A stretch of DNA of 64,000 nucleotides from Phyllobacterium sp. YR531 (GTDB lineage: Bacteria > Pseudomonadota > Alphaproteobacteria > Rhizobiales > Rhizobiaceae): NCBI RefSeq assembly GCF_000282595.1, contig NZ_AKIZ01000001.1, positions 82,773-146,772 of the forward strand, read 5' to 3'. This document shows positions 5,006 to 10,320 of the stretch, one piece after another. The translations under genes were made by a program, and so were the position numbers. The notes beneath the pieces are model-generated. The model worked only from the letters and a program-made list of their open reading frames with translations. It searched no databases and was not told the DNA's origin. Position 1 is the first letter of the stretch. Every line of letters begins with the position of its first letter.

Positions 5006-5152
5006 ATGGCCGAGACACCAGGTTTCGTTATCACCGTCCAACGTTTTACGAAATCCCACGGAGCCACATCGGTTCTCAAGCGCGTCGACTTCTCCGTAGC
5101 GCGTGGGGAAGTCCACGCGCTACTTGGAGAAAATGGGGCGCCCAAATCTTAG
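5006..5152 (+). pseudogene. Sugar ABC transporter ATPase, truncated inside Walker A
   Basis: Only 48 codons remain. They encode the usual start of a sugar ABC ATPase ('FSVARGEVHALLGENGA'), but the expected Walker A GENGAGKST reads GENGAPKS and is followed by a TAG stop. The rest of the roughly 500-residue protein is absent. It cannot bind ATP as written. The break marks the boundary between the sugar-uptake block and the foreign DNA to its right, so it is probably a recombination scar rather than point decay. Confidence 0.85.
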
Positions 5153-5476
5153 GAACGCCGCATAAGGCGGTCTGGGTATCCGGCGATCTCATGTATTGAC
5201 TGATGAAATGTATATGCACGACTGGAACTTTCGACAGGACACGACACGACACGACACGACACGGCGGGCGCGGTGGCATGCCTGGACGCTTGCTCGAATA
5301 ATGGCCGCACCGTCATGACTTCGCATTTTCCCCTTGTCGTCGGGTGGAACTATTTCACGACGCGCCTCATTATTCTGTTCGATGATTATCAACCGAGGCA
5401 ATCGCGCTCGGCATGCCTGACCCGGTTGCGATCAGGATGGCGCCGCTCTGCGTGATATCGCTTTAGGCCATCCGTG
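5153..5476. other. Stretch without a recognisable gene
   Basis: Apart from the five-base tandem repeat I see no supported gene here. The short open frames on both strands lack a family signature or a good ribosome site. It separates the truncated ABC ATPase from the 3' end of the minus-strand conflict-type operon, so it may also hold that operon's terminator, but no clear hairpin with a T run is visible. Confidence 0.6.
5238..5263. repeat. Five-base tandem repeat (ACGAC)n
   Basis: The unit ACGAC (read GACAC in another phase) is repeated about five times without interruption between the truncated ABC ATPase and the DCL gene. It is not inside a convincing reading frame. Such short repeats can expand or contract by replication slippage. 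Confidence 0.9.
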
Positions 5477-5803
5477 TTAGGTCGTACTCGCCTGCTTGTA
5501 ACAGGCATTGAAGGAGAACTTTTCTGCAGTGCCGTCTACGCGGATTACCCAAAAGCACCGCGTGCCGTAGTCCGCCGCTCGCACCTCGAATGATTGGATC
5601 CCAAAACCGATCTTAGTTGCCGCCTCAGGATGTCTTTGTAGCGCAGAGGTCATAAATTGCGAATCGGCAGCGTCAATTGTTTCGCCAATGCGGTACTTAT
5701 ACAAGATGCTTCGGAAGCGCTCCCGCGCCTCCACCTGAGTCGTGAATACTTCTCCATCAATTACGATATCCTGCCGCCGGGCCATCATACTCGCGTCTTC
5801 CAT
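5477..5803 (-). CDS. DCL/DUF3223 family protein, last gene of the ABC-3C-like operon
   Basis: A 108-residue protein resembling the DCL (DUF3223) family, best known from the plant 'defective chloroplasts and leaves' protein, whose biochemical role is unclear. The family features seen are 'ILYKYRIGETIDAADSQFMT', a 'RHPEAATKIGFGIQSFEV' core and the ending 'GTRCFWVIRVDGTAEKFSF'. I choose the ATG at 5803 because it overlaps the stop of the ATPase gene as TGATG; a longer in-frame start at 5878 would lie deep inside that gene. The overlap implies co-translation with the ATPase, so it is probably a component or modulator of the same system. That role is inference. Confidence 0.75.
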   Translation of the reverse strand: MEDASMMARRQDIVIDGEVFTTQVEARERFRSILYKYRIGETIDAADSQFMTSALQRHPEAATKIGFGIQSFEVRAADYGTRCFWVIRVDGTAEKFSFNACYKQASTT

Positions 5804-7716
5804 CAAAGAAAATTCAACGTCCCTTTTTCGAGGGTTGAAAACCGTCCGACAAATAGCTGCTCGGGAATCTCGCTCCAAGGCATAGCGGTGGCAAATATGA
5901 CCTGATGCTCAACCGGGGAGGCCGCAGAGGTTTCAATAACCTGTCGTTGGAAGTTGTGACTGCGTGCTTGCTCCATCCCTTTGTCCTCTGTGATGTCGAT
6001 CATCAGGAAACGCGGGTGGCGGAACTGGGGGTCTTTAAGTGCAGCCCCCAAAAACCCTACGAGAAATGCGGTTTTAAGCACGACACGTGAGCTTGCCGAA
6101 AAATACGTATGATCGTCCACGGTGATCGAGTTTTTCCCGAACGAGAAGTCGACAGTCTTGGGATCGACGAACGAGTCCTGACGCTTCAGATCACCCTTGA
6201 GTATCGTTATCGTCTCACGCTCGATCGCGGTTCTGGCAACGCGCAGCCTGTCTGTTTGGCTTCTTTTCAGTGACAGAATTCGGCTGTCCAGATCCTTGAT
6301 AGCAAGGTCAAGGCTCTCCCTTCTTGCAGATAGGTCACCGATTTTATTGGCGAGCTTGACCTGAGCTTCGACATCCTCGATCGACTTATCGATGTAGCCA
6401 AGCTGCCGATGTAACTCTCTAATATCTTCTCGTACCTTCGATGTTGGTCGCGCCGTAATCGCCGCAAGTTCTCGCGACTTGGCGGTCCACGCGGTCTTTA
6501 AACTGTCAACCTTCGAAGCCTGTGTTTTTAGCCGCTCGCCGCGAATACCCTGCAATCGCTCAGACTGTTTTATCTGAATCGAAAGCTCATTGATAATGCC
6601 GGTGACACGATCACGAGCTCTGTCAGGATCTATTGGCGTTTTGCAAAGATGGCAGGAGAAGGCATGCTCCTCTGCTTCAAGAACGTCGGCATAGCATGCG
6701 GGACATGTTGCGAAGTGCACGTCGGGAACGATTTCCGCTGCCAGTCTGGCATCCTTAAGTGCTTCAACTTTCCGCTTCAAGCTCTCGATGAAGGATTGCG
6801 AGTCTGAGATCTCGAACTCAATCCCGCTCAAAGCTTCCTGCGCCGCCGCAAGCTCCTGCTGCAGCTTTTGGACGGCATTATAGAGCTCTTTTTGCTGCGT
6901 CAGGGTCAACCTGTCGGAGGCAGCAGACGAATAGAAAAGCTCTTCCTTTTCGGCAATCGATTCAAGGACGCGCTCTCTATCAGCTAATAGTGACGCTCGT
7001 TTTTGGGAAATCCATCCGAGCCCCAGACTTTCTTCCCCGCCGACCACTCTGAAAATACTTCTGAGCTCGGCGGAGACCTCCTGGAGCTCTCTCTCCTTCA
7101 GTCTCCGCAACTGCTGCGACTCGTAGATCGCCGTATCAAAGGCACCGCAGAGAAGGTTTCCGACAGCTTCCCGGAGGTTCTCTGGATCGTAACCTTCAAA
7201 TCGGAAAAGACTGTCGGTCGGCGAGAGCTGGTCGGCGTATAGCAGTCGAAGAACCTGATGCATCGTAATGCTTGACGTGCCTTCAACCGCCACGTCTGGC
7301 ATGCCAAGGAGGCGGAACAGGGCTTGCGAGAAGCTCTCCTTGTTTTGCGACCTGGAATAAGAGTACCGAAGCCAGGATTCGATCGGAGCTTCGACAGCTG
7401 CCTCGTATCGCCCGCCGAATATTTCCATATCGGATTGGGATGCGGCGTCAATTTTGCGGCGTAAAACCGCGGGATTGCCGTTTAACTCCACCTCTAACCA
7501 AACGTGATCGCACAGGAGGGCGTGGCCACTCCAATCGAGTTTGCTGAGGTCACCACCAAGCCCAAAGAAAATGAAGTTGAGTATCGTCGACTTTCCCGAC
7601 GAATTGTCTCCGCGGACCACGTTGACGCCGACATGAAAGCGCTCATCGTAGGCGACGTGAACGCCGCGCTTCACGACCAGTCGGCGAACGATCAAGCAGG
7701 GGTCAAACCGGATCAT
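5803..7716 (-). CDS. Rad50/SMC-like ATPase with zinc ribbon, ABC-3C type
   Basis: This 637-residue ATPase has Walker A GDNSSGKST (residues 36-44), a long coiled-coil centre, and a Cys4 zinc ribbon at what should be the coil tip (C338-x2-C341-x13-C355-x2-C358). The C-terminal half has a signature-like 'SASSRVVLKTAF' and Walker B 'FLMID' ending at Asp574. The residue after that Asp is Ile, not the usual catalytic Glu; the next acidic residue is Glu577. ABC-3C ATPases are known to vary here. The start at 7716 overlaps the previous gene by 14 bases, and the stop overlaps the DCL gene. It is probably the motor or sensor of a conflict system, perhaps acting on DNA; it could alternatively be a stand-alone Rad50-like protein. 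Confidence 0.85.
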   Translation of the reverse strand: MIRFDPCLIVRRLVVKRGVHVAYDERFHVGVNVVRGDNSSGKSTILNFIFFGLGGDLSKLDWSGHALLCDHVWLEVELNGNPAVLRRKIDAASQSDMEIFGGRYEAAVEAPIESWLRYSYSRSQNKESFSQALFRLLGMPDVAVEGTSSITMHQVLRLLYADQLSPTDSLFRFEGYDPENLREAVGNLLCGAFDTAIYESQQLRRLKERELQEVSAELRSIFRVVGGEESLGLGWISQKRASLLADRERVLESIAEKEELFYSSAASDRLTLTQQKELYNAVQKLQQELAAAQEALSGIEFEISDSQSFIESLKRKVEALKDARLAAEIVPDVHFATCPACYADVLEAEEHAFSCHLCKTPIDPDRARDRVTGIINELSIQIKQSERLQGIRGERLKTQASKVDSLKTAWTAKSRELAAITARPTSKVREDIRELHRQLGYIDKSIEDVEAQVKLANKIGDLSARRESLDLAIKDLDSRILSLKRSQTDRLRVARTAIERETITILKGDLKRQDSFVDPKTVDFSFGKNSITVDDHTYFSASSRVVLKTAFLVGFLGAALKDPQFRHPRFLMIDITEDKGMEQARSHNFQRQVIETSAASPVEHQVIFATAMPWSEIPEQLFVGRFSTLEKGTLNFL

Positions 7717-8224
7717 AGCGATACTCCAGCAAGCCACTTCTTGCTTTCAGGCCGTCACGACCGTTAAGGGCGTACCGTTCATTGATTTCATACAATATGC
7801 CAATGATATCGGGCATCGTGTCATTGAGCTCCAGGCACCGCTTCTCAACTTCACCACCAAGGCGAGCGGGAACAAACAGAACTCGGTTTCGCGTCCACTC
7901 GTCCTCGGAGATGATTCCGACCCTTGCCAGGCTGGAAGCCGCGGCCTTTTGGAATGCAGCCATTCGCTCGAAGAGCGAATTATCGTCGGGCAATTCGCCG
8001 TATGGCTTCAATCTGGCATAACTTCTGCTTACAGCTCGCCAACGGGTGTCGTCCGCGAAGAGCTGAAGGTTTTGCAGGCGGAAGGGGTGGAGCAGGTAGA
8101 AGTCGAGAATGCGAAACTTGTCGTATGGAACGGCGCGTTCAAGCTTGCAGCCAAAGAATAGGCGCAGGAAGCGAAACACAGTATGATATGGATCGAACGC
8201 CTCGTTGTATGAGAGCTGTGTCAT
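7703..8224 (-). CDS. Middle component of ABC three-component-like system
   Basis: This 173-residue protein lies between the ATPase and the GRDK-motif protein, and both junctions overlap (ATGA upstream, 14 bases downstream). It is mostly alpha-helical by composition, with 'FRILDFYLLHPFRLQ' near residue 40, a pattern I associate with the winged-helix-like middle components of ABC-3C systems. These are thought to link the ATPase to the effector subunit. I choose 8224 over 8263 because the ATG at 8224 sits in the stop of the upstream gene. The assignment depends strongly on gene order; the sequence alone is weak evidence. Confidence 0.65.
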   Translation of the reverse strand: MTQLSYNEAFDPYHTVFRFLRLFFGCKLERAVPYDKFRILDFYLLHPFRLQNLQLFADDTRWRAVSRSYARLKPYGELPDDNSLFERMAAFQKAAASSLARVGIISEDEWTRNRVLFVPARLGGEVEKRCLELNDTMPDIIGILYEINERYALNGRDGLKARSGLLEYRYDPV

Positions 8225-8787
8225 GCGATCGCCCTCTGCGCGTGGTGCCATCGGATAAAGCACTGCTCAGCCAGCCAGTAGACCATGCCGAAAACCACAT
8301 TGTGGCTCACGATCATCAGTTCGCTGCTGCATTCTTCCACTATTGGGTTGACGATGCGGTCCATAATCATCGCATTCATCTGTGCCTCCGAAACTTTCGG
8401 AATTTCGGGATAGATTACATGCGAGAATTCGGTCTCCGCCTTCGCCAAAACGTGGACGAATATCATTTGTGCCGAGGAGTAGAGCGACCACTTCTCGAGC
8501 AACTTCACGAACATTTCTTTCTTTTCGATCGCATCATCATAATAATGATGCATATTGGCAGCAATGAGCTTGTTCTCAAGGCCTTCGACGCCGTCCTGAG
8601 CGCGGCGCAGGTGATATCGCGCCAACTCATCAATCGTTATTTTTGTCTCGTCGCTCGCGTCGTATTGCTCCTTCAGCCGAAGGAGCAATTTTTCGATCTT
8701 TCCCTTCGGCGACTCGACCTTGATGATCTTGTCACGACCGATAATATCGCCGTCAGCGCAGGCGTTCGTTTGGTTCACCGAGTTCAT
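8221..8787 (-). CDS. ABC-3C-like third component with GDIIGRDK motif
   Basis: A 188-residue protein that starts with a short flexible tail holding GDIIGRDK (residues 13-20), then a helical domain rich in charged residues (about 25-185). The tail motif recurs in the small membrane protein encoded just upstream. Such GD-x-x-GRD motifs occur in many bacterial conflict and signalling proteins as short linkers. The C-terminal helical domain fits the domain that tethers effectors in ABC-3C systems, but I see no nuclease, NADase or other known effector domain; the upstream membrane protein may play that part. It starts 8 bases after the upstream stop. Confidence 0.6.
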   Translation of the reverse strand: MNSVNQTNACADGDIIGRDKIIKVESPKGKIEKLLLRLKEQYDASDETKITIDELARYHLRRAQDGVEGLENKLIAANMHHYYDDAIEKKEMFVKLLEKWSLYSSAQMIFVHVLAKAETEFSHVIYPEIPKVSEAQMNAMIMDRIVNPIVEECSSELMIVSHNVVFGMVYWLAEQCFIRWHHAQRAIA

Positions 8788-8795
8788 AGGTTGGA

Positions 8796-8984
8796 TTACG
8801 AACCGTGCGTGGTCTTGTCGCGCCCTACAATGTCTCTTCCGGCTTTCGCGCGGCTTTGATCGACTGCATTTCCATTGGTTCCGGCGCGAAATGTCTTCGT
8901 TACTTGATAGGTAAGAAGGGCTCCGCCAACGCCTCCGGTCAGCAACCCAAGAACAAAATTTGAGACGTCGAATGTGAAGTTCAT
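8796..8984 (-). CDS. Small single-pass membrane protein with DIVGRDK motif
   Basis: A 62-residue protein, first in the operon. Residues 8-27 form one glycine-rich hydrophobic segment, and the tail ends with GRDIVGRDK (49-57), matching the GDIIGRDK of the next gene. A G-rich sequence (GGGGGTAGCT) precedes the ATG. The likely reading is a membrane-targeted effector or anchor that pairs with the second protein through the shared motif; this is inference from motif and gene order. It is easily missed by automated annotation because of its size. Confidence 0.65.
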   Translation of the reverse strand: MNFTFDVSNFVLGLLTGGVGGALLTYQVTKTFRAGTNGNAVDQSRAKAGRDIVGRDKTTHGS

Positions 8985-9157
8985 AGCTACCCCCGATTAG
9001 TAAAACCTACGCCCTGTTTGCCGTGATTTGTCAACAACGCGGATGGGATTTGCTCTGTTATTCTTCACGTTATAGGTAAAAACTGCGTATCGTCTCCTCA
9101 CACAGGAGGCTCGCATGTTTACCCGTACTAGGAGCGTTAGCATTTCATGGTGGCAAC

Positions 9158-9340
9158 CTAAGAGCGCGCGAACACCAATAGGGGTTCGATCTCGTGGTTG
9201 TCGGCCGCCCGGAGCACTATGACATAACGGGCACGGGTCTCGCCAGCATTGATCAGGTTTGCCCGACCCCAGCTAAAGGACGGCCGTCCGAGCTGCCGCG
9301 CGAGCAGGTCGCCGACCAGGCGAGAGAGCCGTCCGACGGC
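9158..9340 (-). pseudogene. 3' remnant of a Fic-type 'mobile mystery protein B'
   Basis: The minus strand ends with 'ETRARYVIVLRAADNHEIEP' followed by LLVFARS and TAG, which matches the C-terminus of Fic-domain proteins called mobile mystery protein B. The upstream part 'GRLSRLVGDLLARQLG' is where the Fic HxFxxGNGR core would end, but the core itself is missing; the frame runs into a cold-shock remnant on the opposite strand. It is therefore a broken 3' end of about 60 codons. The intact family is common in genomic islands next to a small Xre-type partner (protein A), absent here. Confidence 0.6.
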
Positions 9341-9478: not shown

Positions 9479-10320
9479 GTCGTGTGGACTCTTGGGATTC
9501 CCAAGGCTGAGCAAATCAGATTCAAGACTGTCTTTTGGAGGCAGTCATGGGTGTTTTGGATCGTCTGATTTTGCGTGATGAGCAATGGGAGCGGATATCG
9601 CCGCATATCATTGGTGACGAGCGCACACGCGGTTCGTCCGGCCGCGACAACCGCATGTTCGTGGAAGCGGTACTTTGGATCGTGCGGACCGGCTCGCCTT
9701 GGCGCGATCTGCCTGAAGTGTTTGGTGAATGGAACAGTGTCTTCCGCCGTTTCAGCCGCTGGAGCAAAAAGGGCGTCTGGTGGCGCATGTTCGCGGCGAT
9801 GTCGGACGATCCGGATTTCGAATATCTGATCGTCGATTCCACCATCATCCGCGCCCATCAGCACGCCGCTGGCGCAAAAAAGGGGCTGAAGATCAGGCCC
9901 TTGGCCGCTCTCGAGGCGGCCTGAGCACCAAAATCCATATGGCTGTGCGTGGTCTCGGCTGCCCGGTCCGCTTCACACTTACCGCAGGCCAGAAGGGCGA
10001 TGCGCCGCAAGCCGATGCCCTGATCGAGGGCCTACCTGCCGACATCGTCATGGCCGATACCGCTTATGACAGCGATCGCCTGCGCAATGCCATCGCTGAT
10101 AAAGGGGCTGTGGCGGTGATCCCCAACAATCCCTCCCGCGCTCAAAAATACCCGCTGGACAAGAACCTCTATGCCCAACGTCACCTGATCGAATGCTGCT
10201 TCTCCAAACTCAAGCAGTTCAGAAGAGTCGCAACGCGCTTCGAGAAAACGGCGAGAAACTACCTCGCCGTCGTCACCATCGCAGCAACCGTCCTATGGAT
10301 CAGATAACATCCAGGCCACC
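9478..10320 (+). mobile_element. IS5 family element, IS427-like, about 843 bp
   Basis: The ends are imperfect inverted repeats: GGTCGTGTGGA on the left and TCCAGGCCACC on the right (8 of 11 positions pair). Both are flanked by TA, the target preferred by the IS427 group. Inside is a two-frame transposase joined through a run of six A. Length and organisation are normal, so the copy may be active. It sits between the cold-shock remnant and the ornithine cyclodeaminase-family gene, and supplies part of the stop codon for both flanking frames. Confidence 0.8.
9547..10307 (+). CDS. IS427-like transposase made by -1 frameshift
   Basis: The first frame (9547-9924, 125 codons) has the N-terminal DUF4096-like region 'RISPHIIGDERTRGSSGRD' and the first catalytic Asp in 'YLIVDSTIIRAHQHAAG'. 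The second frame ends at 10307 and has the other acidic residues in 'IVMADTAYDSDRL' and 'HLIECCFSKLKQFRR', giving the DDE triad. The frames are joined by -1 slippage at AAAAAAGGGG (9876-9885), as known for this IS group. I take ATG 9547 rather than the TTG at 9535 because GGAG lies just before it. Confidence 0.85.

Follow-up and report, generated by a model that had tools for sequence, protein, structure and literature searches.

Matched tags on a CTD9 docking protein and a predicted membrane peptide, its likely effector, in an ABC-3C operon of Phyllobacterium sp. YR531

Results

A five-gene operon of the ABC-3C type

The DNA analyzed here, referred to as the window, is a 64,000-nucleotide stretch of Phyllobacterium sp. 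YR531 (contig NZ_AKIZ01000001.1), and its element of interest is a minus-strand operon of five open reading frames (ORFs) at window positions 5477-8984. The operon belongs to the ABC three-component (ABC-3C) systems of the Lamassu superfamily and encodes, from 5' to 3', a membrane peptide, a CTD9 protein, an MC5 protein, an ATPase and a DCL protein, as follows.

8796-8984, minus strand: gene 1, single-pass membrane peptide, 62 residues, likely effector (codon-position differences, relatives)
8221-8787, minus strand: gene 2, CTD9 docking protein (GRDK protein), 188 residues (PF20285, E 2.8e-34)
8248-8583, minus strand: CTD9 domain, gene 2 residues 69-180
7703-8224, minus strand: gene 3, MC5 middle component (LmuC-like), 173 residues (PF20291, E 2.1e-45; fold comparison)
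5803-7716, minus strand: gene 4, LmuB-like Rad50/SMC-type ATPase, 637 residues (PADLOC LmuB, E 1.9e-45)
5477-5803, minus strand: gene 5, DCL/DUF3223 accessory, 108 residues (PF11523, E 6.3e-21; PADLOC HamC, E 3e-35; PDB 2K0M, E 7.3e-27)

Genes 1 and 2 are separated by an 8-bp gap (8788-8795), genes 2 and 3 share an ATGA overlap (8221-8224), genes 3 and 4 overlap by 14 bp (7703-7716), and genes 4 and 5 overlap by the single base of TGATG at 5803. These ORF coordinates agree throughout with the five-gene operon and the junctions described in the initial annotation, and a plasmid of Agrobacterium sp. 13-2099-1-2 has been annotated with the five genes in the identical order.

The docking domain (CTD9) and the middle component (MC5) that characterize ABC-3C systems were each recognized over the family cut-off, and gene 4 matched the Rad50/LmuB-like ATPase of these systems and encodes a zinc hook; it also matches Pfam AAA_23 (E 4.5e-6). 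Three motifs of gene 4 were compared across 42 relatives.

7585-7611, minus strand: Walker A, GDNSSGKST; lysine in 42/42 relatives
6643-6705, minus strand: zinc hook, CPAC...CHLC; four cysteines in 42/42 relatives
5983-6006, minus strand: Walker B, LMIDITED; no glutamate directly after the aspartate, with T, I, N, S or G there in 42/42 relatives

In fold comparisons, the CTD9 model aligned best with the docking domain at the LmuA C-terminus, and LmuC was among the tied best matches of the MC5 model. Foldseek returned no significant E-value for either model, and neither the CTD9 profile nor the ATPase sequence had a significant match among PDB sequences. The ABC-3C assignment made in the initial annotation is borne out by Pfam (CTD9 and MC5), PADLOC (LmuB) and the fold comparisons; placement of the ATPase in an unrelated repair family, named beforehand as the outcome that would speak against it, did not occur, the ATPase being LmuB-like by PADLOC. 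Strict Lamassu calls for a single LmuA chain on which an effector domain precedes the docking domain, and none was found; because CTD9 is the only domain recognized on the 188-residue protein, whose first ~30 residues the model leaves unstructured, the operon is filed as an ABC-3C (Lamassu-superfamily) variant and not as a classical Lamassu. It is likely an anti-phage alarm.

The peptide and the CTD9 protein carry matched tags

The C-terminus of the membrane peptide and the N-terminus of the CTD9 protein carry a similar short stretch, here called the tag.

8814-8870, minus strand: C-terminal tag of gene 1, residues 39-57, NAVDQSRAKAGRDIVGRDK (local alignment with the CTD9 tail)
8728-8784, minus strand: N-terminal tag of gene 2, residues 2-20, NSVNQTNACADGDIIGRDK (alignment; low pLDDT)

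Local alignment joined the two tags over 19 residues, 11 of them identical, with a score of 55 that was equalled in 0 of 5000 shuffles. In the CTD9 model the tag is unfolded, with low model confidence (predicted local distance difference test, pLDDT) across about residues 1-30. Chance was ruled out as the origin of the match, both for the window pair by these shuffles and for the set of loci described below, and a recent tandem duplication of the tag is unlikely, as identity is limited to 33 of 57 bases and to 4 codons among those of the 11 shared residues. Since the other seven of the 11 shared residues are encoded by different codons in the window operon, the simplest reading is selection on the match at the protein level. 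A search for the DNA pattern GGDIVGRDK gave no match in 398 genomes and missed the copy in genome G1026 too, and is thus uninformative on other systems.

Distribution and co-divergence of the tags across CTD9 loci

CTD9 loci (labeled L) were collected from genome contigs (29), IMG/VR (6), plasmids (8 of 9 hits) and Pfam-led genome searches, in which CTD9 was detected in 4/385, 7/394 and 6/398 genomes, five of the last set over the cut-off. Removal of nine broken or cut loci (L018, L022, L030, L034, L040, L045, L047, L070 and L071, of which L030 and L070 are one record) from the 55 with a CTD9 match left 46, and merging of eight near-duplicates left 38 non-redundant loci; G864, which is under the family cut-off, and plasmid hit H9 were not used. 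A tail and peptide were called where an upstream membrane-peptide gene gave a tail alignment score of at least 35, which L033 barely passes, and L033 and L072 were excluded from the tag profile and residue count. The collection is biased, because the query alignment consisted almost entirely of tagged CTD9s.

Both tail and peptide gene are found in 32 of the 38 non-redundant intact loci, each with the matched motif on adjacent genes, at the C-terminus of the candidate effector and the N-terminus of the CTD9 side; six loci have neither. Two of these six (L048 and L074) have an alpha/beta-hydrolase-like domain, a fold read from the sequence, fused to CTD9, and the fused protein of L048 matches PADLOC DUF626_VIII and, weakly, LmuA. 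The remaining four (L039, L066, L069 and L076) encode a short CTD9 with no effector recognized; on the ATPase tree, three of them (L066 is not on the tree) nest beside L046, which has tail and peptide, and for this reason the two parts were probably lost together. When only the Pfam-led searches are counted, 12 genomes exceed the cut-off: six of them (G000, G361, G562, G667, G979 and G1026) have both tail and peptide, a fused hydrolase-like domain is found in G369 and G697, neither is found in G154, G430 and G499, and the locus of G703 is truncated.

The peptide tails scored higher with the CTD9 tail of their own operon (mean 59.9) than with those of other operons (46.4; 0/20,000 permutations), and among ten loci with less than 50% CTD9 identity the difference was 60.1 versus 35.3 (0/20,000). 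Where a peptide residue departed from both consensuses, the cis partner had the same residue 41 times out of 175, compared with 8.9% when the pairing was shuffled (0/5000; 30 loci). Examples of such peptide/CTD9 pairs are VGGDQAGRD / VQGDQAGRD in L046, VGGDQIVGDKY / VSGDQVIGGKY in L038 and STVHGSVRAGNDTN / SNIQGGVRVGDDTN in L072. By these alignments, the tag copies co-diverge between distant operons, the two separate genes staying matched as the motif changes, with a contribution from common descent.

The membrane peptide is the likely effector

The gene of the 62-residue peptide appears to be coding, with differences at codon positions 1/2/3 of 4/1/17, 5/1/18 and 3/2/14 relative to three near relatives. 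The peptide has 10 relatives other than itself at E <= 0.01, and no family was found for it in Pfam or PADLOC, nor any above cut-off in NCBIfam. Hydropathy and charge predict one membrane helix.

8910-8966, minus strand: predicted membrane helix of gene 1, residues 7-25 (hydropathy and charge)

The helix is glycine-rich and more positively charged on its C-terminal side. In all 32 peptides the helix is predicted to span the membrane with the tail inside, as judged by charge, and 28 of the 32 helices have a small-xxx-small-xxx-small pattern, compared to 41% of shuffles. The 97-residue peptide of L072 (2495-2788) seemingly has two membrane helices, and its tag is strongly diverged, with the same variant on the L072 CTD9.

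In Lamassu, the N-terminus of LmuA is the likely effector, and it is released LmuA that acts (PMC10586767). The place of that effector on the window CTD9 protein holds only the tag, and the sole candidate effector has a tag of the same kind, which argues for the peptide in the effector role. The initial annotation had also taken the membrane protein as the effector, having missed the tag; the match with CTD9 is the better argument, and on its account the peptide is likely the effector.

A toxin-antitoxin pair would place the same parts in another relation, in which a constitutively toxic peptide is kept silent by the CTD9 tail, bound to the peptide tail, until a phage attacks or the complex is lost and the peptide is set free. 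Short single-pass membrane toxins exist, and the adjacent genes, the 8-bp gap and the matched tags would suit such a pair, as would the PDB entry titles for Lamassu, which report a nuclease sequestration state beside an LmuA tetramer. However, the released LmuA is the acting form in Lamassu and the CTD9 tail occupies the place of the LmuA effector domain (PMC10586767), and four CTD9 operons are without both parts; a toxin-antitoxin function is thus held to be improbable.

The DCL gene is a recurrent accessory

Among 44 assessable loci, 13 have a same-strand DCL gene immediately 3' of the ATPase gene, a count that includes near relatives of the window and becomes 12/43 without L040, which is taken as a provirus copy of L014. 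The non-redundant set has DCL in 5/38 loci, equal to 5/33 of those with room to see it, and the hosts of DCL-bearing loci include Rhizobiaceae, Phyllobacteriaceae, Paracoccaceae and Lysobacteraceae. On the ATPase tree, DCL presence needs four changes, at least three of which are forced by well-supported branches, and on the DCL tree the CTD9-linked DCLs fall in two places, a split that supported branches do not force. Among 385 genomes of the class, DUF3223 was present in five, comprising the window, Hachiman loci L062 and L064, L063, which by its ORFs is an apparently broken Hachiman, and L065, which has no clear assignment. Thirty-six plasmid records contain DCL, and the 11 that were inspected include two CTD9 operons, three annotated DUF1837-helicase-DCL arrangements, three other AAA/SMC-like ATPase operons and three records without a clear assignment.

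The DUF3223 protein of Hachiman is HamC, and PDB structure 2K0M is discussed as HamC in print (PMC8565338). This Rhodospirillum rubrum protein is 76-80% identical to the DCLs of CTD9 operons L018, L022 and L042, compared to at most 52% for six DCLs labeled Hachiman, and may itself belong to an ABC-3C operon. In Tetrahymena, the DUF3223 domain of the La protein is required for tRNA-mediated suppression, and an RNA-chaperone role is raised by the authors (PMC9705548); on these grounds DCL probably serves the sensor as an accessory that handles nucleic acids, recurrent in the loci and absent from most relatives seen.

The initial annotation had described DCL as the fifth member of the operon. DCL recurs beside the ATPases of CTD9 operons (13/44) and is accordingly not confined to the window, the case that had been named as telling against it; the gene is not peculiar to these operons, though, since relatives are also last in some Hachiman and other ATPase operons. 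DCL as a novel core component was ruled out, being patchy and of a family already known from Hachiman. A reading with DCL as effector or as main novelty, and with the membrane peptide incidental, is very improbable: DCL genes adjoin or overlap the ATPase gene and are met repeatedly in defense operons of several kinds, but they are present in only 13/44 assessable loci with four changes on the ATPase tree, versus 32/38 loci for the peptide. The occurrence of DCL alongside ABC-3C as well as Hachiman suggests that the two systems have an accessory in common.

Two Bradyrhizobium plasmids (L081, 3298-6720; L084, 3318-6378) carry a row of three genes (a small ORF, an SMC-like AAA ATPase and DCL) that may be another DCL-linked defense operon; PADLOC matches of the L081 ATPase were moderate only. 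In Rhizobium setariae (L030, 4502-4762), a CTD9 fragment runs into DCL-looking residues, as if an operon that included DCL had lost its central part by deletion.

Flanking DNA

One candidate regulatory feature lies upstream of the operon.

8985-9044, minus strand: possible promoter in the 60 bases preceding gene 1; TTGACA conserved in three near relatives

A consensus scan did not report a promoter-like site at 8985-9044, and promoter and terminator sites were no more numerous than in shuffles. Just upstream of the operon, on the opposite strand, is an IS4/5-family transposase in two overlapping frames (9535-10307, plus strand; Pfam DUF4096, then DDE), and about 180 bases at 9157-9335, perhaps a gene fragment, resemble 'mobile mystery protein B' DNA on some Rhizobium, Ensifer and Xanthobacter plasmids. 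On the 3' side of the DCL gene (about 5231-5262), GTGTC units form a short run. Between a TRAP transporter operon and the defense operon, a 47-residue start of an ABC transporter ATPase stops early (5009-5152, plus strand; weak ABC_tran match, positions 1-25 of 137) and looks like a remnant. No tRNA was found in a scan of the window.

Discussion

We propose, with a probability of roughly 0.42, that in this operon a CTD9 protein without a recognized fused effector shares its tag, in diverged form, with a separate predicted membrane peptide, the likely effector, which is switched on by tag-tag assembly. By comparison with Lamassu, the LmuB-like ATPase and MC5 would sense foreign DNA and hold CTD9 at rest; upon sensing, CTD9 would be released or multimerized, like LmuA in the solved tetramers. 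Once clustered, the disordered CTD9 tails might act as templates for the peptide's matching tail, the assembly being prion-like or multivalent in some other way, and the clustered helices would breach or depolarize the membrane, so that the infected cell dies or stops growing. The specifically prion-like version, in which an SMC-type sensor of DNA brings about the death of the infected cell through a docking subunit that seeds the peptide's tail, would constitute a non-NLR signaling amyloid whose diverged tags separate the signals of distant operons; it is put forward tentatively, as possible and somewhat doubtful.

Several results weigh against this proposal. The tag motif scored four published amyloid-signaling peptides, one of them BASS3, no better than shuffles. 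Own pairing was only weakly better than pairing with the single nearest relative (17 positive, 13 negative and 2 zero; Wilcoxon p 0.024), and the best-scoring CTD9 was the own partner for only 7 of 32 peptides. A resemblance to RHIM and BASS3 seen by eye was not borne out by the shuffle comparison.

The dissimilarity to the four published amyloid peptides would suit an explanation in which the tag pair serves plain docking or membrane recruitment, the peptide anchoring the ABC-3C complex where phage DNA enters and the harm coming from another component or from DNA binding itself. Both the matched tags and the single-pass helix would be equally fitting for an anchor; however, Pfam, PADLOC and NCBIfam revealed no other effector domain in the five proteins, and tail and peptide are absent where CTD9 has a fused hydrolase-like domain, as if they filled the effector's place. 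We regard simple docking as unlikely, and the proposal of a peptide effector switched on by its tag is preferred.

A literature search found no work linking amyloid signaling with Lamassu, or GRDK with STAND, the founding ABC-3C classification and the BASS-defining paper being outside its scope, and the arrangement was not found in the available portions of the literature on amyloid signaling with phage abortive infection. Whether signaling amyloids exist in NLR-independent pathways is asked in a review of amyloid signaling (PMC7889193), and the CTD9 operons of Alpha- and Gammaproteobacteria allow the question to be tested with two genes. The operons further suggest a way for a Lamassu-type sensor to swap effectors with no fusion of genes, and they give CTD9 systems without an enzyme a likely effector.

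Comparison with known systems

The window operon is like Lamassu (LmuA-LmuC-LmuB, DdmABC) in its CTD9, MC5 and LmuB-like ATPase families, its gene order, its zinc hook, a Walker B aspartate without a glutamate directly after it, and the alignment of CTD9 with the LmuA docking domain. Unlike Lamassu, its CTD protein has no recognized enzyme domain, the likely effector being a separate, tag-joined membrane peptide, and DCL is added. With Hachiman type II (HamA-HamB-HamC) it has in common only the DUF3223 accessory gene, which is last in the Hachiman operons seen; neither HamA (DUF1837) nor HamB was among the PADLOC matches listed for the five proteins (for the ATPase, the best 25 of 39). No NLR domain was reported in the five proteins by Pfam, PADLOC or NCBIfam, and the operon thus differs from the NLR-linked amyloid pairs in its sensor, an SMC-like ABC-3C complex, and in a motif unlike the four published peptides compared. 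It is like those pairs (BASS motifs with Bell-domain effectors, and HET-S/NWD2) in having a motif of ~20 residues at the C-terminus of a likely membrane effector and the receptor-side N-terminus of adjacent genes (PMC7889193 and PMC12261475). By this analogy, the effector seems to have been split off and reconnected via matched tags, in the layout of the NLR amyloid-signaling pairs.

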